The notes under the pieces: generated by a model
What the model was told of the DNA's origin: nothing
Database searches by the model: none
What the model saw: the letters and a program-made list of their open reading frames with translations, nothing else
Translations under genes and position numbers: made by a program
Shown here: positions 16,712-26,325 of the stretch, one piece after another
Numbering within the stretch: position 1 is the first letter of the stretch
Layout: the number at the start of each line of letters is the position of its first letter
Source: Actinosynnema sp. ALI-1.44
GTDB taxonomy: Bacteria > Actinomycetota > Actinomycetes > Mycobacteriales > Pseudonocardiaceae
Reading direction: 5' to 3'
Length of the DNA: 64,000 bases
Assembly (NCBI RefSeq): GCF_001984155.1
Contig: NZ_MTQO01000054.1
Span: forward strand, 682,001 to 746,000

Positions 16712-17596
16712 TTACATCGTGCGCAAGGTGTCTCGTTGGAAGTGCCAGACGACCAGCTGCGGCCCCGTCGCGGCGTGCGCCGCCTCCGGGACCAGTGCGG
16801 CGAGCGACCACGGCCACACATCCCACGGACCGATCTGGTCGGCCTTCGGACCTGGCGCCGAGTCCGCCTTCGGCTCCTCGCAGCCGCGCAGCGTGAGACC
16901 AGCGGCCAGCGCCGCGCGCAGGTAGTCGCCCATCGAATGGCGGTAGGTCACCAGCCTGTGCGGTTCGTTGCCGGGGCCGCGGACGGTGGGGATCGAGCCG
17001 CGCAAGATCCCGTCCGGGTGAATGTCGGCGACGACGAGGTGCCCGCCCGGCCGCAGTGCGCGGGCGAACTCGGCGAATATCGGCCGCAGGTCGGGGTTGT
17101 GGGTCAACGCGAGCCCGCACACGATCAGGTCGACGTCCTCGACGGGCAGGTCGTGCAGTTCGCCGTGCCGGAACTCGCTGCCGGGCAAGCGCTTGCGGGC
17201 CAGGTCGAGCATCTCGGGCGAGCTGTCCACGCCGATCACGCGGTGTCCCCGTTCGGCGAGGAACTCCGCGTACCTGCCGGTGCCGCACGCCGCGTCCAGT
17301 GCCGTGCCGACCGGGAGCCGGTCGACGATCCGCCGCACGATCGGCAAGTCGATCGCGAAGGCCGCGTTCGCCGGGTCGTCGTAGGTCGCCGACCAGGTGC
17401 GATAACCGTCCACTGTGTCCACAGTGGTCACGTCGACCGGTCGCGTCAGCCGTTCGTCGGCGAGCAGGTCGCGCACCTCGGCGAGTCTGGCCTCGATGAA
17501 CTCCCGGTCGTGTTCGCCGATGAAACCCTGCAGCAGCGCGATGCCCTCCAAGCCGATGACGTACGCCAACGGGTGTTCGTGGATCTTGTGAGCCAT
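16712..17596 (-). CDS. Class I SAM-dependent methyltransferase
   Basis: A 294-residue protein starting MAHKIHEHP, chosen because the upstream in-frame extension looks non-coding. An N-terminal helical segment of about 90 residues precedes a Methyltransf_11/25-type domain with the SAM motif 'ALDAACGTGRYAEFLAERGHRVIGVDSS' and 'LRPGGHLVVADIHPDG'. Substrate unknown. It diverges from the lanthipeptide synthetase across 455 bases, so it could be co-regulated with that locus, but nothing shows it acts on the peptide. Confidence 0.8.
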   Translation of the reverse strand: MAHKIHEHPLAYVIGLEGIALLQGFIGEHDREFIEARLAEVRDLLADERLTRPVDVTTVDTVDGYRTWSATYDDPANAAFAIDLPIVRRIVDRLPVGTALDAACGTGRYAEFLAERGHRVIGVDSSPEMLDLARKRLPGSEFRHGELHDLPVEDVDLIVCGLALTHNPDLRPIFAEFARALRPGGHLVVADIHPDGILRGSIPTVRGPGNEPHRLVTYRHSMGDYLRAALAAGLTLRGCEEPKADSAPGPKADQIGPWDVWPWSLAALVPEAAHAATGPQLVVWHFQRDTLRTM

Positions 17597-18051
17597 GGGC
17601 CGGATGCTGCCAGCAGCGGGCCGCACTGTCGTGTGAATTGCCGATCACGCGTACGCACTCGGGGTGGTCACGTGTTATCGCACTGTTATCCCGATCGGCG
17701 ACCGAGTATCGGGACGCCGTTGCGCCATGCGCGACATTGCAGGCAGGCTGTGTGAAGGACCAATTCGCCGACACGCTGGCCGGGATATCCCCGGCCGCGC
17801 GTGCCGCGAGACTTTCACCCACAGCAGCTGGATGCGCCATGGGCTGGTGTCACTGACAAACGGGATGGTCACCACGGGGGGCTTTGGTGACCAGCCCGTT
17901 CGTCAAATGGGGCATCGCGCTGGATGATCGGAGTGTTACGCGTCGGTATGAGCAGATGTGAAAAACGCACCGGTAGGCCGTGACAGGTGCGTCGGGGACT
18001 AATGACGGAACTCACTATGCCGCCTGGCTGCTGGTAACAACGATTGCAGCC
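17597..18051. promoter_or_regulatory. Control region of the lanthipeptide locus
   Basis: No convincing gene in 455 bases between divergent starts. It holds three repeats: a direct repeat TGTTATC at 17673-17679 and 17684-17690 (11-base period); an inverted repeat TCCCGAT/ATCGGGA at 17689-17695 and 17708-17714; and a strong inverted repeat with 16-base arms at 17859-17874 and 17885-17900 (15 of 16 paired, core TGGTCACC/GGTGACCA). They lie about 150-380 bases upstream of LanKC. The RamR-like regulator encoded at the other end of the locus is the obvious candidate to bind here. Confidence 0.6.
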
Positions 18052-20634
18052 ATGAACGAGGAGTACGAGGCCTACTGCATGGCGGATCCGTCGTTCTACG
18101 ACGCGATGCACTCCGAGCAGACAGCCGGTGAGTCGTTCGCAAGCGCCGACCGCCCATTGCCGGACGGGTGGACGCTGCACGAGCAGGACGACTGGTTCGT
18201 ACTCAATCCCGGTCCGCGGGACACCCCGCTGCAAGGCTGGAAGATCCACGCGTCGGCCACCGTCGACAACGCCGAACGGGTGATCGACGAGATTTTCGAC
18301 TACTGCGTCCCGCGCGGCATCCAGTTCAAGTTCCTCAGGTCACGCTCCGCACTGATCTCCCGGGTCTCCAAATACGCTCCGCGAGGGTTCAGCGGCAAGC
18401 TGGTCACGATCTACCCGCTCGACGACACCGAGTGCGAACGGATTCTGACCGAGCTGGGCGAACTGCTCGACGGTGAGCCGAGCCCGTACATCCTCAGCGA
18501 TCTCCGCTGGGGCAAGGGCCCGCTGTACGTCCGCTACGGCGCCTTCGCCAACCGGTACACAGTGGACGAAACCGGTGAGGTGGTCGACGCGATCGCCCAG
18601 CCGGACGGGACGCTAGTCGCCGACCGGCGCGGGCCGGTGTTCTACACCCCACCGTGGGTCGCGCTGCCCGGTTTCCTCCAGCCGCACATGGACGCCCGCA
18701 ATGCGGTGACTGTCCAAGGGCTGCCGTACACGTTCGACAGCGTCGTGCACTTCTCCAACGGTGGCGGGATCTACGTCGGCACGGACACCAGGACCGGCAG
18801 CAAGGTCGTGCTCAAGGAAGGCCGCCCGCACGCCGGGCTGGACTCCTGGGGACACGACGCCGTGCGCAGGCTGGAGCGGGAGCACGCCGTCCTCCGCAAG
18901 CTCGCGGGAATTCCCGGTATCCCTGAGGTCTACGACCTGTTCTGGTTGGGCGAGCACCGGTTCATGGTGATGGAGTACGTCGAGGGCGACGTGCTGTCCA
19001 AGGCGATCACCATGCGGTACCCGCTGATCGACCCGGCCGCGACGGACGCCGACTACGCGCGGTTCACCGACTGGGCGGTGAAGATCCACCGCCAGGTCGA
19101 GCAGGCGATCACGGCCGTGCACGAGCGCGGGATCGTCTACGGGGACCTGCACCTGTTCAACATCATCGTCCGCGAGGACGACACGATCGCCTTGCTGGAC
19201 TACGAAGTCGCGGCCGCCGAGGACGAGGCGATCCGACCGGGACTCGGCAACCCGGGGTTCACCTCACCGCGCTCGGTCACCGGTTTCGGCATGGACGACT
19301 ACGCGCTCGCGTGCCTGCGGCTGGCGATGTTCCTGCCGATGACGAACCTGTTCAGCCTGCACCGGGTCAAGGCGCGGCAGTTCGCCGAGATCATCACCGA
19401 GCACTTCCCGGTGTCCCAGGAGTTCCTGGCCAAGGGCGTCGACGTGATCGTCCCGCCGGACACCCCCGCGACACCCAGCCCGGTCCTCCCGACGGACACC
19501 GCCGACTGGCCGGGAGTGCGCGACGACATGGTCCGCTCGATCGTCGCGAGCGCGACGCCTGACCGGGACGATCGGCTGTTCCCCGGTGACCCCAGGCAGT
19601 TCGGCGTCGGCGGTCTCGGCCTGGCGCACGGCGCCGCGGGAGTCCTGTACGCCCTGTCGGTCACCGGTGGGTATCGCGAGGAGCGGTTCGAGCAGTGGCT
19701 CGTCAGCCGGGCGAAGAACCCGGCAGGCGGTTCGCGGGTCGGTCTGTTCGACGGGCTGCACGGCGCCGCGTTCACCATGGAACACCTGGGCTACCGGCAG
19801 GAAGCACTGGACACTCTGGACATCTGCCTGCGGGAGAAGTGGGAGTCGTTCGGCCCCGACCTGCTCACCGGGCTGTCCGGGGTCGGCATCAACCTGCTGC
19901 ACTTCGCCGACCGCACGGGAGAACCGGCGCTGCGCCGGGCCGCGCTCCGGGCGGCCGAGCTGGTCGCGGACCGGCCGGACGACGAGGACGACTCCGGGAT
20001 CAGCGGTGGTGTGCACCCGCATGCCGGGCTGTTGCGTGGCCGCGCGGGGCAGGCCCTGCTGTTGATACGCGCCTACGACGACACGGGCGACACGAACTTC
20101 CTTGACCGCGCCGCCAACGCGTTGCGTCAGGACCTGAAGCGCTGTTTCCTGCGGGACAACGGTGTCCTGGAGATCAACGAGGGCTGGCGGACGATGCCGT
20201 ACCTTGACGGCGGCAGCGTCGGCCTTGGTATGGTCATCGACGAGTTCCTGGCCCGCAGGCACGACGACCAGTTCGCCGAGGCCAACCGCGGCATCGAAGC
20301 GGCCGCCACGTCCACAATGTACATCCTGCCCGGACTGTTCACCGGGCGCGCCGGGATCCTCGCCTACCTGGCCGGCCGGTTGCCCGGCACGGATCCGTTG
20401 GTCGGCAAGCAGATCCGCAACCTGGCGTGGCACGCGCTGCCGTACGCGAACGGGATGGCCTTCCCCGGCACGGCGCTGCTGCGCCTCTCGATGGACCTGG
20501 CCACCGGCACCGCCGGTGTGCTGCTCGCGGTGGGAATGGCTCTGCACAACGAGCCCGCCCACCTGCCGTTGCTGGCACCGAGGCGCCGCACGGCTCCACA
20601 GACCCCCGCGCCGACCGGCACGGGTTCGCAGTAG
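18052..20634 (+). CDS. lanKC: Class III lanthipeptide synthetase LanKC (RamC/AmfT-like)
   Basis: An 860-residue three-domain enzyme. The ATG gives MNEEYEAYCMADPSFYDAM, the start style of RamC/AmfT. An N-terminal phospho-Ser/Thr lyase domain (about 1-220) is followed by a kinase domain with Gly-rich loop near 235, catalytic 'YGDLHLFNII' near 363 and 'LLDYEVA' near 381, then a LanC-like cyclase domain from about 515 with repeated GxxG turns (GGLGLAHGAAG, GLFTGRAGILAY). The Zn-binding Cys/His set of classical LanC is absent, normal for class III. It phosphorylates, eliminates and cyclises the precursor encoded 25 bases downstream. Confidence 0.95.
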   Translation: MNEEYEAYCMADPSFYDAMHSEQTAGESFASADRPLPDGWTLHEQDDWFVLNPGPRDTPLQGWKIHASATVDNAERVIDEIFDYCVPRGIQFKFLRSRSALISRVSKYAPRGFSGKLVTIYPLDDTECERILTELGELLDGEPSPYILSDLRWGKGPLYVRYGAFANRYTVDETGEVVDAIAQPDGTLVADRRGPVFYTPPWVALPGFLQPHMDARNAVTVQGLPYTFDSVVHFSNGGGIYVGTDTRTGSKVVLKEGRPHAGLDSWGHDAVRRLEREHAVLRKLAGIPGIPEVYDLFWLGEHRFMVMEYVEGDVLSKAITMRYPLIDPAATDADYARFTDWAVKIHRQVEQAITAVHERGIVYGDLHLFNIIVREDDTIALLDYEVAAAEDEAIRPGLGNPGFTSPRSVTGFGMDDYALACLRLAMFLPMTNLFSLHRVKARQFAEIITEHFPVSQEFLAKGVDVIVPPDTPATPSPVLPTDTADWPGVRDDMVRSIVASATPDRDDRLFPGDPRQFGVGGLGLAHGAAGVLYALSVTGGYREERFEQWLVSRAKNPAGGSRVGLFDGLHGAAFTMEHLGYRQEALDTLDICLREKWESFGPDLLTGLSGVGINLLHFADRTGEPALRRAALRAAELVADRPDDEDDSGISGGVHPHAGLLRGRAGQALLLIRAYDDTGDTNFLDRAANALRQDLKRCFLRDNGVLEINEGWRTMPYLDGGSVGLGMVIDEFLARRHDDQFAEANRGIEAAATSTMYILPGLFTGRAGILAYLAGRLPGTDPLVGKQIRNLAWHALPYANGMAFPGTALLRLSMDLATGTAGVLLAVGMALHNEPAHLPLLAPRRRTAPQTPAPTGTGSQ

Positions 20635-20659
20635 TCCCCCGACACAAGGAGTAGACGAG

Positions 20660-20812
20660 ATGTCTGTTCTTGACCTGCAGGGCATGGAAGCCGCGCCGCA
20701 GACCGGTGGCCACGGTGGTGGCAGCTCCAACAGCGGCCACAGCTGCCCGAGCAACCTGAGCCTCACCCTGTGCAACGGCGGCTCCGGCCTGTCGCTGCTG
20801 ATCTGCCACTGA
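20660..20812 (+). CDS. lanA: Class III lanthipeptide precursor with three labionin/lanthionine motifs
   Basis: A 50-residue peptide with an AAGGAG site 8 bases before the ATG. The leader starts MSVLDLQGMEA and contains the LDLQ motif that LanKC enzymes recognise (as in RamS and AmfS). A Gly/His-rich linker (about 16-21) leads to three S-x2-S-x3-C units: Ser22/Ser25/Cys29, Ser31/Ser34/Cys38 and Ser42/Ser45/Cys49. Each can form a labionin or lanthionine ring. SapB-type precursors have two units, so a three-ring product is predicted. The hydrophobic rings (LSLTLC, LSLLIC) suggest a surface-active, aerial-growth-type peptide. No protease gene is present. Confidence 0.93.
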   Translation: MSVLDLQGMEAAPQTGGHGGGSSNSGHSCPSNLSLTLCNGGSGLSLLICH

Positions 20813-20840
20813 TTTCCACCAGCGGTAGGTAGCTGAGCAC

Positions 20841-20881
20841 GCGCGACTCCGGGACGACTGTCGCTCGCCCCGGGGTCGCGC
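20841..20881 (+). terminator. Attenuator-like hairpin between precursor and exporter genes
   Basis: GCGCGACTCCGGG (20841-20853) pairs with the stretch ending GGGGTCGCGC at 20881, allowing one G-U pair, with a 15-base loop and no U-tract. It lies between lanA and the ABC genes, where partial termination would raise precursor message over transporter message. Confidence 0.55.
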
Positions 20882-20902
20882 ACCAACTATAGGAGCACCC
20901 GG

Positions 20903-22555
20903 GTGACGACTTTCGGCGCCATCGCCAGGCACGGAGGCCGCTGGCTTCCGTTGATCGGCGCATCCGCCCTGGTCGGCACCGTGGGCATGCTCGCTTTGCC
21001 GACCGTACTCGGCAAAGCCGTTGACGCGATTGTTACCGGCAGCGCGGTCACCACTTGGCTGGTCGCCGCCGCGGTGCTGATCGCGGTCGGGGTCATCACC
21101 GACCTCGTCGATTCCTTCGCTGGCGTGGCGTGCGTCGCGAACACCACAGCGTGGTTGCGCGAACGCCTGGTCCGCCACCTGCTCGCGGCCGGCCCCGATC
21201 GCGGCTTCGACACCGGTGACCTGGTCACCCGTGTGTCCGGGAACGCCGTGGACGCCGCTCAGGCGGGCCCCGCGGTGGTCACCGTGTGGATGGCGGTGCT
21301 GCCTCCTGTCGGCAGCCTCGTCCTGCTCGTGGTGATCGACCCGTGGCTCGCGGTCGCCTTCCTCGGCGGCGTCGGGCTGGTCGCGTTGGTGCTGCGGGCG
21401 TTCACCCGCCGGACAGCCCGCGTGATCACCTCGTACCAGCAGGTGCAGGGCCGGATCGCGGCGCGGCTGACCGAAGCGCTGGCTGGTGCGCGCACGATCG
21501 CGGCGGCCGGAACGCTGCACGATGAGAAGCGCCGCGTGTTGCGCGAGTTGCCCGCGCTGCACGACCAGGGAATGGCAAGCTGGCAGGTGCTCTCGCGTTC
21601 GGTCGGGCAGGCGGGCGTGGTCGGTCCACTCGTGACGGTCTCGGTGCTGGCCGCCGGTGGCGTCTCGTTGCTGAACGGCCGCATCACCCCCGGTGAGCTC
21701 TTCGCCGCGCTGCAGTACGCGGCACTCGGCGCCGGTCTCGGCGGCATGACGAGCGTCTTCAGCCGCCTTGCCAGAGCCAAAGCCGGTGCCGGCCGGGCCG
21801 CCGAGGTGTTCGACGTCCAGCCGCCCGGCCACGGCGAGCTGTGGCTCAGCGAAGGCAAAGGGCGGCTCGAGTTCAGGAACGTCACCGTCCACAAAGGTGA
21901 GACGAAGGTCCTCGACGGCGTCACCATGACGTTGCCGGGTGGCAACGCCATCGCCGTGGTCGGCCGGTCCGGCGCGGGGAAGTCGACCCTCGCAGCGGTG
22001 GCGGCGCGGCTCGTGGACCCGGACGACGGTCAGGTCCTGCTCGACGACGTCCCCATGAAGTACCTGACACACAAAGACTTGCGTACCGCGGTCGGGTGTG
22101 CTTTCGAACGCCCGGTGCTGGTCGGCGGAACAGTCGCCGACGCCGTTGGCATGGGGCGCGACCTGGAGCTTGTCCGGTCGGCAGCCAAGGCGACCCACGC
22201 GCACGAGTTCGTCAGCCGCCTGCCACACGGGTACAACACGCCGCTCGCCGAAGCGCCGATGTCCGGTGGAGAGGCGCAGCGGCTCGGTCTCGCGCGGGCG
22301 TGGAACGCCGAACGCCTGCTGGTGCTGGACGACGCGACGTCCAGTTTGGACATGGTGACCGAGATGCGGATCGGCCGGACGCTGACCGCCGACGACGGCC
22401 ACCGCACCAGGCTGATCGTCACCCATCGGGTCGCCACCGCGGCGAACGCCGACATGGTGGTCTGGCTGGACTCCGGCCGTGTCCGCGCGCTCGGCCCCCA
22501 CGCGAGCCTCTGGCAGGACCCGGAGTACCGGGCAGTGTTCGGGGCGGCGGAGTGA
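20903..22555 (+). CDS. ABC exporter half-transporter, lanthipeptide locus (RamA/AmfB-like)
   Basis: A 550-residue fused permease-ATPase. GTG start with AGGAG 7 bases upstream. An N-terminal six-helix type 1 exporter domain (about 15-300) precedes a nucleotide-binding domain with Walker A 'GRSGAGKST' near 354, signature 'MSGGEAQRLGLARAW' near 452 and Walker B 'LLVLDDATSSLD'. With the next gene it should form a heterodimeric exporter for the modified peptide, as RamAB do for SapB in Streptomyces. Confidence 0.92.
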   Translation: MTTFGAIARHGGRWLPLIGASALVGTVGMLALPTVLGKAVDAIVTGSAVTTWLVAAAVLIAVGVITDLVDSFAGVACVANTTAWLRERLVRHLLAAGPDRGFDTGDLVTRVSGNAVDAAQAGPAVVTVWMAVLPPVGSLVLLVVIDPWLAVAFLGGVGLVALVLRAFTRRTARVITSYQQVQGRIAARLTEALAGARTIAAAGTLHDEKRRVLRELPALHDQGMASWQVLSRSVGQAGVVGPLVTVSVLAAGGVSLLNGRITPGELFAALQYAALGAGLGGMTSVFSRLARAKAGAGRAAEVFDVQPPGHGELWLSEGKGRLEFRNVTVHKGETKVLDGVTMTLPGGNAIAVVGRSGAGKSTLAAVAARLVDPDDGQVLLDDVPMKYLTHKDLRTAVGCAFERPVLVGGTVADAVGMGRDLELVRSAAKATHAHEFVSRLPHGYNTPLAEAPMSGGEAQRLGLARAWNAERLLVLDDATSSLDMVTEMRIGRTLTADDGHRTRLIVTHRVATAANADMVVWLDSGRVRALGPHASLWQDPEYRAVFGAAE

Positions 22556-24366
22556 AGCGAGAGATCCGGTTCGGCACCGCGGCGCTGCGCGCCGGTCCCG
22601 TCTTCGCGTTGATCGGCTGGTCGATCCCGGAGGCGATCCCCGCGGCCGTGTCCGGCCTCGCGGTGGCCCACGCCGTCGACGACGGGTTCCTGGCCGGGCG
22701 GCCGGTTGTCGGGTTCGCCTGGCTGGCCGGGCTGATGGTGGCCGCGGTGATCGGCTCGATCGGGTCGCGCCGGGTCTTCCAGCGGCTCGGCGAGCTGGTC
22801 GAACCCTTCCGCGACGACCTGGTCGGCAGGGTCGTCGGCAGCGCCTTGTACAAGAGCGTTTCCGGGCAGCCCGACGAGGGCGCGCTGGCCCGGCTGACGC
22901 GGCAGGTCGAGATCGTCAGGGACACCTTCGCCGGGTTGATCGTGGTCATCCGGAGTTTCCTGGTGACCCTGGTCGGCGTGGTCATCGGCCTGGTGTCGCT
23001 CGCCCCGGTGATCGTCGTGCTGATCCTGCCGCCGTTCCTGATCGGCTTCGCCGCGTTCCTGGCCACACTCGGGTTCGCCGCGGCCAAGCAGCGCGCGTCC
23101 GTGCTGGCCGACGAGCGGCTCGCCGCCACAGCGGGATCAGTGCTGGCCGGGACGCGTGACGTGGTGGCGTGCGGTGCGGAGACGCACGCCGCCGCCATGG
23201 TGTCCGGTCCGATCCAGGCCCAGGCCGACGCCGAGCGGGCGATGGCCAGGGTCGCCGCGCTGCGCACGGTGTGCTTCGCCGTCGGCGGCTGGCTGCCGTT
23301 GATCGTGCTGCTGGTCGCCGGGCCGTGGCTCGCCGGACAGCACGGCCTGACCGCCGGTCTGATCATGGGTGGACTGACCTATGTCGTGTCAGGCCTGCAA
23401 CCCGCGCTGCAGTCGGTGATCGCGGGGGTCGGCGGCAGCGGTCTGCGGTTCGTGGTCACGCTCGGCCGGATCCTCGACGAGACGACGGCGCCGCCGGTCG
23501 AGTTCCAGCCCCAGGCCGACCGGCGCGGCGACGACCTGATCCTGCGGGACGTGACGTTCGCGTACGGGCCGCACGCCGAGCCGGTCCTGCGTGACCTGGA
23601 TCTGACCGTGCTGGCGGGCGACCACCTCGCGGTCGTCGGTCCGAGCGGTATCGGGAAGTCCACGCTGGCGAGCCTGATCTGCGGGCTGCGTTCCCCGGAC
23701 TCGGGGACGGTTCGGTACGGAGGTGTGCTCGCCACCGAACTGGGCGCGGCCGACCGGGTGCTGATCCCGCAGGAGGCCTACGTGTTCACGGGCTCGTTGC
23801 GGGACAACCTGACCTATCTGCGCAGCGACGCGACCGACAGCATGATCGACAACGCGGTTGACGCCGTCGGCGCACGTGATCTGGTCGAGAGGGTCGGCGA
23901 ACAGCTGGATCCGGCGACGTTGTCGGCGGGGGAGCGGCAGTTGATCGCGCTGGTCCGGGCGTACCTGAGCCCAGCCAGGTTGGTGGTGCTCGACGAGGCC
24001 ACGTGCCATCTGGACCCGGTGGCCGAACGCCGTGCCGAGGAGGCGTTCGCGCGGCGGGGCGGAACGCTGGTCGTGGTCGCACACCGGATCAGCTCGGCGC
24101 GCCGTTCCGAGCGGATCCTGGTCCTCGACGGGGTCAGTGCCGCCGTCGGCGACCACACCTCTTTGGTCCGGCGATCACCGCTGTACCGGGACCTGTGGGG
24201 CAGTTGGGATTCACAACCAACCCGCCTCGCGCACGATCCGGATCGCGTCGATCCGGGTGCGGGCACAGGTTTTGCTCATCACCTTGGACAAGTAGTTCCG
24301 CACAGTTCCCTTGGACAACGAGAGCCGGGACGCGATCTCCGGTCCGGAGGCGCCGTCGGCGGCTAG
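22552..24366 (+). CDS. ABC exporter half-transporter, partner subunit (RamB/AmfA-like)
   Basis: GTGA overlap with the first half-transporter; 604 residues. Membrane domain (about 10-300), then Walker A 'GPSGIGKST' near 363, signature 'LSAGERQLIALVRAY' near 457, Walker B 'LVVLDEATCHLD' and H-loop 'VVAHR'. The recognisable ABC fold ends near base 24210 (SPLYRDLWGSWDS). The frame then stays open for about 50 more residues, running antisense through the end of the convergent regulator gene, so the last 156 bases are shared. Confidence 0.9.
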   Translation: MKREIRFGTAALRAGPVFALIGWSIPEAIPAAVSGLAVAHAVDDGFLAGRPVVGFAWLAGLMVAAVIGSIGSRRVFQRLGELVEPFRDDLVGRVVGSALYKSVSGQPDEGALARLTRQVEIVRDTFAGLIVVIRSFLVTLVGVVIGLVSLAPVIVVLILPPFLIGFAAFLATLGFAAAKQRASVLADERLAATAGSVLAGTRDVVACGAETHAAAMVSGPIQAQADAERAMARVAALRTVCFAVGGWLPLIVLLVAGPWLAGQHGLTAGLIMGGLTYVVSGLQPALQSVIAGVGGSGLRFVVTLGRILDETTAPPVEFQPQADRRGDDLILRDVTFAYGPHAEPVLRDLDLTVLAGDHLAVVGPSGIGKSTLASLICGLRSPDSGTVRYGGVLATELGAADRVLIPQEAYVFTGSLRDNLTYLRSDATDSMIDNAVDAVGARDLVERVGEQLDPATLSAGERQLIALVRAYLSPARLVVLDEATCHLDPVAERRAEEAFARRGGTLVVVAHRISSARRSERILVLDGVSAAVGDHTSLVRRSPLYRDLWGSWDSQPTRLAHDPDRVDPGAGTGFAHHLGQVVPHSSLGQREPGRDLRSGGAVGG

Positions 24367-24876
24367 CCGGAGCACCTGCAGTTCACGGGGGGTGAACGGG
24401 TTGGGCCCCGCGGCCAGTGCGGCGACCGCCAGGTTGACGTCGACGACCTGGGAACCCCGTGCGGCACCCCGGATCGCCGCGAGCAGCCGTTGCGCTGAGG
24501 CGTTCTTGTCGACCAGGCCGAGCACCTCGGCGGTCAGCGCGCGCTGGACCAGACCGGGCGGCCTGGCCGCGGCCAGGGCGACGACCTGGGTGTGCGGCAT
24601 TCGGGAACGCAGCTCCGGAACCATCGTCAGACCTCGCGTGCAGGGCTGGTCGACGTCGATCACCACGACGTCCGGCCGCATCCTGCTGGCGATCGGGACC
24701 ACGTTGTCATCGCATTTCAGGTCGGCGACCACCTCCATGTCGTGCTGGTCTGATAACAGTGTCGCGAGTGCGTCCCGTAACAAGTCCATGTCGACGACGA
24801 GCAGCACTCGGATGACACCCGGCACGTCGGCCGGGCAATCGGTTGTCACTGGGCTGACTTGCGGCTCTGCCGTCAT
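24211..24876 (-). CDS. NarL/LuxR-type regulator of the lanthipeptide locus (RamR/AmfR-like)
   Basis: A 221-residue response-regulator-like protein. The receiver-like domain has 'VLLVVDMDLLRDAL' (one acidic-pocket residue replaced by Met) and Asp74 in 'VVVIDVDQP' at the usual phospho-acceptor site. The C-terminal LuxR HTH has 'FTPRELQVLRLAADGASGPEIASRLSLSKGTVRNYLSKV'. No sensor kinase is adjacent, as for RamR. Codons 33 and 41 are TTA, which is rare in such DNA and suggests bldA-tRNA-dependent translation. It is convergent with, and overlaps, the exporter gene. Confidence 0.88.
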   Translation of the reverse strand: MTAEPQVSPVTTDCPADVPGVIRVLLVVDMDLLRDALATLLSDQHDMEVVADLKCDDNVVPIASRMRPDVVVIDVDQPCTRGLTMVPELRSRMPHTQVVALAAARPPGLVQRALTAEVLGLVDKNASAQRLLAAIRGAARGSQVVDVNLAVAALAAGPNPFTPRELQVLRLAADGASGPEIASRLSLSKGTVRNYLSKVMSKTCARTRIDAIRIVREAGWL

Positions 24877-25197
24877 TCGTCCTCCCTCTCCTGAGCTCCT
24901 GGCGAGCTCCCCACGCGATCCGTAGATACGGGCTGGGCATATGGCCGTTACCGGCGCACCGTTGGGTCGGAACTTGGCTCATACGAACGGAGTAATCAGG
25001 CAAATAATCAACCGGCGATTTGCCTGGCTGGCAGGGGTGCGTAACGCCGATTCGTTGTGCCATTGGTGCATTCGGCGAGGCTCTCCGAACCGGCCGTGAA
25101 TTTGCGCGATGTCGTTGACAACTTGCTTTAGTTAGGGCGTTGAACTTATTATCGCCGCATCTGGCACTGGCGCCAGCTGGAGTGAGGGTGGACAGAC
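24877..25197. promoter_or_regulatory. Intergenic promoter region between the regulator and GH99 gene
   Basis: No gene in 321 bases; it serves two divergent starts. For the rightward gene, TTGCTT (25123-25128) and TATTAT (25147-25152) are 18 bases apart and about 45 bases before the ATG, a plausible sigma-70-type promoter. TTGACA at 25115 lacks a partner at normal spacing. A CTGGCGCCAG palindrome lies near 25163, just before the ribosome site. The regulator side shows no clear boxes. Confidence 0.35.
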
Positions 25198-26325
25198 ATG
25201 CGAACCCTGCGAAGCACTGTCGGCCTGGTCCTACTGCTCACCGCCGTCCTTGCGCAGGCGCCTACGGCGTCCGCGGACGCGGTGGTCCGAGCGGTCGCGG
25301 CTGACGTTCACCTCTTCTACTACCCGTGGTACGGCAGCCCGGCGGTACACGGCGCCTACCGGCACTGGCCGCAAGGCGGCCACACCCCGCCCGACGACGT
25401 CGGTGCGGACTTCTACCCCACGCTCGGCGCGTACGACTCCGGCGACACCGCGGTGATCGACCAGCACATGCGGATGATCCAGCAGTCCGGCGCGGGCACG
25501 ATCGTGACGAGCTGGTGGGGACGAGGCTCCTATGAGGACAGTGCGGTACCCGCGCTGCTGTCCTCGGCGACACGGTACGGCATCAAGGTCGCATGGCACC
25601 TTGAGCCGTACTCCGGCCGTACCGCCGAGTCCACCGTCGCGGACATCGGCTACATCAACTCGAAATACGGGGGCAGCCCGGCGTTCTACCGCGCGGCCGC
25701 CTGGGGGAACCGCGGCGCGTTCTACGTCTTCGAAAGCCTGCGGATCACCGACTGGACCGCGCTGGAGCAGGTCAGGGCGAGCAGTATCGTGCTCGCTCAG
25801 ACGACCGACGCGTCCCGCGTGGCCCACTTCGGCGGTATGTACACCTACGACGGCATCGCCGGGGCGACCGCTCCCGGGTGGAAGAACGCATCGGACTTCT
25901 GCAAGGCCAACGGTTTGGTGTGGGCGCCGTCCGTGGCACCCGGCTACATCGACGACCGCGCCGTGCCGGGCAACACCACCCCGACGGTGGGCCGTGACAA
26001 CGGCGCGATGTACGACAGGCAGTGGGGCAACGCGCTCGGCGTCAGTCCGTCGTGGGTTTCGGTGACATCCTTCAACGAATGGCACGAAGGGTCGATCATC
26101 GAACCGGCCAGGTCGAATCCGCCGTCCGGGCACGGGTATCTGACCTACCAGGGCGCGTACGGCCGGACAGGTGCCGCCGCGGAAACCGCCTACCTGGACC
26201 GTACCCGTCACTGGGTCGGCCAGTTCACCGCCGGAGCTCCAGCAAACCCGTCGCCGCGGACCGCGGCGAAGCCGACCCGCGCAGCGTCACCCCGCGCGTG
26301 GCAGCGGTCGGCCCGAAGCTGGTGA
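25198..26325 (+). CDS. Secreted GH99-like glycosidase
   Basis: A 375-residue protein with a Sec signal peptide (cleavage likely after 'ASADA', near residue 28). The mature part begins 'FYYPWYGSP...HW', contains 'GTIVTSWWGRGSYED' and ends with 'SVTSFNEWHEGSIIEPA', the NEWHEGxxIEP block of glycoside hydrolase family 99 (endo-alpha-1,2-mannosidase/mannanase). It may cut alpha-mannan outside the cell. The last 30 residues (Pro/Ala/Arg-rich, after 'HWVGQFTAG') look unlike the rest: good third-position bias moves to another frame there. Confidence 0.82.
   Translation: MRTLRSTVGLVLLLTAVLAQAPTASADAVVRAVAADVHLFYYPWYGSPAVHGAYRHWPQGGHTPPDDVGADFYPTLGAYDSGDTAVIDQHMRMIQQSGAGTIVTSWWGRGSYEDSAVPALLSSATRYGIKVAWHLEPYSGRTAESTVADIGYINSKYGGSPAFYRAAAWGNRGAFYVFESLRITDWTALEQVRASSIVLAQTTDASRVAHFGGMYTYDGIAGATAPGWKNASDFCKANGLVWAPSVAPGYIDDRAVPGNTTPTVGRDNGAMYDRQWGNALGVSPSWVSVTSFNEWHEGSIIEPARSNPPSGHGYLTYQGAYGRTGAAAETAYLDRTRHWVGQFTAGAPANPSPRTAAKPTRAASPRAWQRSARSW

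Follow-up and report, generated by a model that had tools for sequence, protein, structure and literature searches.

The gene lanA, which lies in a window of 64,000 nucleotides from Actinosynnema sp. ALI-1.44 (the window being the whole stretch of DNA that was analysed), very probably encodes a stackepeptin-type class III lanthipeptide precursor with a core of three S-x2-S-x3-C units. The explanation which we favour overall is that the operon makes a stackepeptin-type class III lanthipeptide with three rings, a SapB-like peptide that would be exported, and we put the probability of this reading at roughly 0.9. Under this assignment the lanA product belongs with a known compound, stackepeptin, and no longer to the new class that had been supposed.

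The lanA precursor and its operon

The translation of lanA is MSVLDLQGMEAAPQTGGHGGGSSNSGHSCPSNLSLTLCNGGSGLSLLICH*, and the LDLQ motif and unit residues named by the first-pass annotation (Ser22/Ser25/Cys29, Ser31/Ser34/Cys38 and Ser42/Ser45/Cys49) are found in it at exactly those positions (Table 1). The precursor scored 50.7 bits against the Pfam RamS profile (PF19402, cut-off 24.3) and 47.5 bits against the NCBIfam profile SapB_AmfS_lanti (NF033212, cut-off 25), while the adjoining lanKC, whose open reading frame ends 25 bases upstream of lanA, scored 1062.7 bits against NF038151 (cut-off 575), confirming the proposed placement of a class III precursor beside a LanKC gene. The description of the first ring as polar and of the second and third as hydrophobic was likewise borne out by GRAVY values of -0.98, 1.01 and 2.05 for units 1, 2 and 3. 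The annotation had allowed for at most six water losses, a figure that proved too low since residues 22-50 contain eight serines and one threonine, so that up to nine losses are possible. The calculated monoisotopic mass of the core is 2857.316 unmodified and 2749.252 after six water losses if the core begins at S22, or 2914.337 and 2806.274 if it begins at G21.

Table 1. Features of the lanA locus, with positions in the window, and the precursor of Stackebrandtia nassauensis.
Feature	Position	Strand	Basis
lanKC, class III lanthionine synthetase (RamC_N, Pkinase, LANC_like)	17980..20634	+	Pfam, NF038151
Ribosome-binding site of lanA, AAGGAG	20646..20651	+	sequence
lanA precursor, 50 aa, SapB/AmfS family (very probably stackepeptin-type), three S-x2-S-x3-C units	20660..20812	+	sequence, Pfam and NCBIfam profiles
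Leader, residues 1-21 (end putative); LDLQ synthetase-recognition box, residues 4-7; variable spacer, residues 11-21	20660..20722	+	precursor comparison
Unit 1, S22-S25-C29 (SSNSGHSC), polar	20723..20746	+	sequence, conservation
Unit 2, S31-S34-C38 (SNLSLTLC), hydrophobic	20750..20773	+	sequence, conservation
Unit 3, S42-S45-C49 (SGLSLLIC), hydrophobic	20783..20806	+	sequence, conservation
Hairpin, 13-bp GC-rich stem, between lanA and the first transporter gene	20844..20884	+	stem search
ABC transporter 1, RamA/RamB-like	20903..22555	+	profile match
ABC transporter 2, RamA/RamB-like	22552..24366	+	profile match
LuxR/NarL-type response regulator, convergent with the operon	24211..24876	-	profile match
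S. nassauensis precursor, MALLDLQGLESPADLSATRGGSSGSGHSCPSNLSATLCGGTSGLSVLICH	L169:6071-6220		

An open reading frame of just 50 codons, rich in Ser and Gly, might be thought to yield three such units by chance. Three non-overlapping S..S...C units appeared at most 3 times in 200,000 shuffles, however (0 for residues 2-50, 3 for residues 14-50 and 0 for residues 22-50, with 200,000 shuffles of each), the precursor family models match above their cut-offs, and three strict units recur in 35 of 43 loci picked through the synthetase alone. A chance pattern, rejected by the shuffling and refuted by the conservation, is left with virtually no probability.

The start of lanKC is probably the ATG at 18052, because the aligned stretch of two Kibdelosporangium-type relatives (L042 and L043) is broken near its beginning by a stop codon that lies upstream of this ATG. 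Residues 520-884 of LanKC contain two cysteines and no CHG, the zinc-ligand motif, so that the cyclase part lacks this motif, as expected for the SapB/AmfS family. LanKC also matched the solved class III synthetases 9wop (E 5.6e-83) and 8sap (E 7.9e-75). The order lanKC-lanA-ABC-ABC with a convergent regulator is the ram/amf (SapB) layout, a similar order recurs in relatives, and the same gene set is reported, in passages of two papers, as ramCSAB/ramR and amfTSAB/amfR (PMC13380574, PMC4255298). From its position we infer a RamR/AmfR-like role for the response regulator. The open reading frames of ABC transporter 2 and the regulator overlap tail-to-tail by 156 bases (24211-24366), and the matches to these two proteins overlap in L040-L043 also. 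A scan for consensus promoters found none, a search for terminator-like sites gave one, inside lanKC, which is below the shuffled mean, and Rfam gave no match in 17400-25300.

A perfect stem of 10-19 bp was present 3' of the precursor in 31/31 loci with an in-register three-unit precursor, and stems of 10 bp or more also followed 82 of 101 other family precursors. Where a locus carried more than one precursor (17 loci), stems behind the final precursor averaged 13.1 bp, with 11 bp or more in 13/17, and those behind the 21 earlier ones 7.2 bp. Several base pairs of the hairpin covary (28 rows), and the hairpin may determine how much precursor mRNA there is relative to transporter mRNA.

Three-unit relatives and the synthetase clade

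Stackepeptin was reportedly described by Jungmann et al. (2016, ACS Chem Biol 11:69). Its source is given as S. nassauensis in a passage of PMC6429369, and part of a 2024 survey groups it with SapB in one class III subfamily having two to three cysteines (PMC11251773). The S. nassauensis genome (G828) contained a single class III synthetase above the cut-off, a second match of 287.5 bits falling under it, and one SapB/AmfS precursor, which adjoins the class III synthetase. This precursor has the same three S-x2-S-x3-C units as lanA, in the same register. As the synthetase is the only one over the cut-off and the precursor the only one in the genome, elimination links the pair to stackepeptin, and we identified the three-unit precursor by strong inference as the stackepeptin precursor, StaA.

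Overall identity between the S. nassauensis precursor and lanA was 66%, with 24 of 29 core residues identical, although just 9 of 21 leader residues match, five core positions are substituted and the host belongs to another genus. The gene order is the same at both loci, where the S. nassauensis proteins show 61% (LanKC), 59% (ABC1), 56% (ABC2) and 34% (regulator) identity to those of the window. The first-pass annotation had named, as evidence against its proposal, the existence of close homologues whose product is characterised; by strong inference, stackepeptin supplies such a case. The annotation had considered lanA the strongest candidate for a new compound; a new congener of stackepeptin remains probable, while the claim to novelty of kind does not hold, given that the producer of a named product has a three-unit relative. 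Its statement that relatives carry two units was incomplete, S. nassauensis and a conserved actinobacterial subgroup having three. The idea that only two-unit relatives exist was rejected, as three-unit precursors were found in other genomes.

The lanA gene was found in 8/8 genomes of the genus from which the window comes, counting the window's own genome. Within the window's family 17 of 390 genomes matched a three-unit alignment (E at or below 2.7e-19), and three full units were present in 16 of these 17, the other (G118) having an altered unit 1. A class-wide draw gave 26 of 394 genomes with any match; a pattern search of the class-wide loci fetched found a third unit at none except that of the window's own genome, and at one of them (L133) it found no precursor. 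Scanning named genomes yielded 49 loci, and three full units were present at 25 of these, from Kibdelosporangium, a record labelled 'Rhodococcus', Actinophytocola, Herbihabitans, Amycolatopsis, Actinocrispum, Glycomyces, Phytomonospora, Actinorhabdospora and a Catenulisporales MAG. The 'Rhodococcus' record (L043, JOAA01000001.1), which appears to belong to a 12.4 Mb genome of the window's genus (G006), is labelled Rhodococcus rhodnii NRRL B-16535 and is probably a mislabelled Kibdelosporangium. The 33 pattern-picked precursors include one (L114) falsely, which has two units. Of 101 genomes drawn from the Glycomyces salinus family, 39 had a RamS-type match, and the loci read there showed further forms, for example first units SSNSKHSC and SSSSTGC. 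A literature search by title found no Kibdelosporangium paper on such a lanthipeptide.

Searches with LanKC alone matched 206 of 390 genomes in the window's family and 85 of 200 in the Glycomyces salinus family. The best 30 loci of each search (60 in all) were read, and precursors were recognised by the leader box only. Synthetase identity among these showed a gap, 43 loci lying at 59% or more and 17 at 56% or less. A single precursor was read at each of the 43 loci, with three cysteines in 41 and three strict units in the 35 referred to above; none of the 17 had three strict units. The first unit is dispensable, as among the 43 it was lost in the two-unit exceptions L231 and L253 (Glycomyces xiaoerkulensis type) and altered in L207 (Actinophytocola algeriensis type). 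The first unit was shifted or altered, with three cysteines kept, in L173, L235, L237, L238 and L251. Two-unit precursors also accompanied two incomplete synthetases close to the border of the clade: L072, with 61% identity across 443 residues, and G804, which is split between two contigs (57% and 63%) and has the precursor L153.

A quick tree of 65 synthetases was built under LG+G4 with SH-aLRT support only, its rows coming partly from precursor searches, in which two-unit members may be under-sampled. Left out were L072 and L081, whose aligned portions were too short, L187, with 487 aligned residues, and L171, which has the precursor of L066. All 35 rows labelled three-unit fell in one 38-row clade (SH-aLRT 100) that holds the synthetases of both the window and S. 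nassauensis, two of the 35 (L170 and L173) having a shorter first unit, S-x2-S-x2-C. The clade was completed by Glycomyces xiaoerkulensis, which has lost unit 1, Actinophytocola algeriensis, in which unit 1 is altered, and G844, with two units. The three-unit label needed 4 changes on the tree vs 21.9 in shuffles, and one gain and three losses of unit 1 would be the simplest account of them; the outgroup joins involve long branches. The three-unit peptides are thus a conserved subgroup that goes with a single synthetase clade and is found across several actinomycete families. They offer a natural series (three units, a shifted or altered unit 1, a lost unit 1) in which the effect of the extra ring can be tested.

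Several other precursors and synthetases were observed. Two Actinomadura precursors have a polar, SSHSKSC-like first unit and one hydrophobic unit, and a Sinosporangium precursor is similar (L076, 7182 on; L082, 8001 on; L087, 8001 on); the synthetases of these loci lie outside the three-unit clade. The window's own genome has a second class III synthetase (L184, G000:C50:54207-56651, 883 bits), near which a pattern search saw no precursor. It also has, at G000:C47:552099-552568 (L185), LanKC fragments beside the remnant of a SapB-like precursor with Tyr at the place of a unit Cys, which looks like a decayed two-unit locus.

Conservation of the first unit

The first-pass annotation had raised the doubt that unit 1 might be leader. 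Conservation was assessed in 38 distinct three-Cys precursors, that of the window included, which had been sampled by synthetase alone. The mean share of the top residue was 0.83 for unit 1, 0.82 for unit 2 and 0.79 for unit 3. Of the nine positions that precede unit 1, six scored 0.16-0.29 and the Gly adjoining it 0.89, while the spacer from the leader box to unit 1 varied in length (9-15) and in sequence. Unit 1 is conserved like units 2 and 3, and most of the preceding spacer is not, indicating that unit 1 belongs to the core.

Within unit 1, S23 and C29 were kept in 38/38 precursors, S25 in 37/38 (Thr in the other), S28 in 34/38, S22 in 32/38, H27 in 30/38 and G26 in 29/38. The six precursors without S22 (L173, L207, L235, L237, L238 and L251) were the same six that have Ser at the G26 position, so that the S-x2-S spacing is preserved with a shift of one residue (S23 and residue 26), leaving two residues instead of three ahead of the Cys. 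As few lineages are involved, the six losses of S22 are not six independent events. The pN/pS values of units 1, 2 and 3 (0.92, 0.55 and 1.00) are misleading, because AGY<->TCN swaps between serine codons score as non-silent.

If residues 22-29 were leader, or an unmodified N-terminal tail, the product would be a two-ring, SapB-like peptide. The polar character of unit 1, its placement at a point where the leaders of other members end in Gly/His-rich sequence, its loss in L231 and L253 and its alteration in L207 all fit such an arrangement. Against it stand the conservation in the 38 precursors, at the level of units 2 and 3 and unlike most of the spacer, and the pairing of S22 loss with a gained Ser, by which S-x2-S was kept in 6/6 cases. 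We consider it very improbable that unit 1 is leader or tail, and treated it as part of a three-unit core.

Conservation of S23, S25 and S28 equals or exceeds that of S22, the serine which S-x2-S-x3-C needs. It is conceivable, if distinctly unlikely, that unit 1 is a specialised polar head and more than a third copy of the same ring. Were this so, unit 1 may have a different ring pattern (for example via S23), extra dehydroalanines or a His-assisted role in metal or surface binding that would separate these peptides from SapB.

The predicted product and known systems

The gene set, units, homology and conservation described above were computed here, and the ring chemistry, processing, export and function proposed for the product are taken from the family. 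By analogy, the LDLQ leader would be bound by LanKC as a helix, and core serines would be phosphorylated and then dehydrated by the same enzyme, with three labionin or lanthionine rings closed thereafter, a polar one at residues 22-29 and hydrophobic ones at 31-38 and 42-49. In a Bacillus class III enzyme, as part of one report describes it, the leader binds the kinase lobe as a helix, the LELQL motif is critical and labionin forms without zinc (PMC10604976). The choice between labionin and lanthionine is described in a passage of PMC13380574 as hard to predict from the synthetase. The two ABC proteins would export the peptide, and the leader would be trimmed by peptidases encoded elsewhere; class III leaders are trimmed by unlinked peptidases according to a section of one review (PMC10885120). 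The product may then be an amphiphilic, SapB-like surface peptide, released as aerial hyphae form and switched on by the adjacent response regulator.

The layout of the locus, the genus-wide presence of lanA and the hydrophobic rings are consistent with a SapB-like morphogen, to which we would give about even odds; no evidence of a morphogen role for stackepeptin itself was found. Class III peptides have varied activities, the labyrinthopeptins being antimicrobial or antiviral members, and the hydrophobicity of rings 2 and 3 is high enough to suit membranes, so that the product could instead be a defensive peptide (antimicrobial or antiviral) and not a surfactant morphogen. This we judged unlikely, given that the gene is kept in all eight genomes of the genus, that 0/10 proteins scanned around lanA resemble an immunity protein and that the locus has the ram/amf layout. 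The SapB-like surface peptide remains the function which we propose.

Compared with SapB/RamS and AmfS (NF033212, PF19402), lanA shares the leader box and two hydrophobic C-terminal units, and its locus shares LanKC, two transporter genes and a response regulator, whereas lanA has one extra, polar, N-terminal unit. Durhapeptin and two-motif Streptomyces peptides, as portions of PMC13380574 present them, resemble lanA in an LLDLQ-type leader, the SXXSXXXC motif and a ram-like cluster, but have two motifs where lanA has three and differ in hydrophobic pattern.
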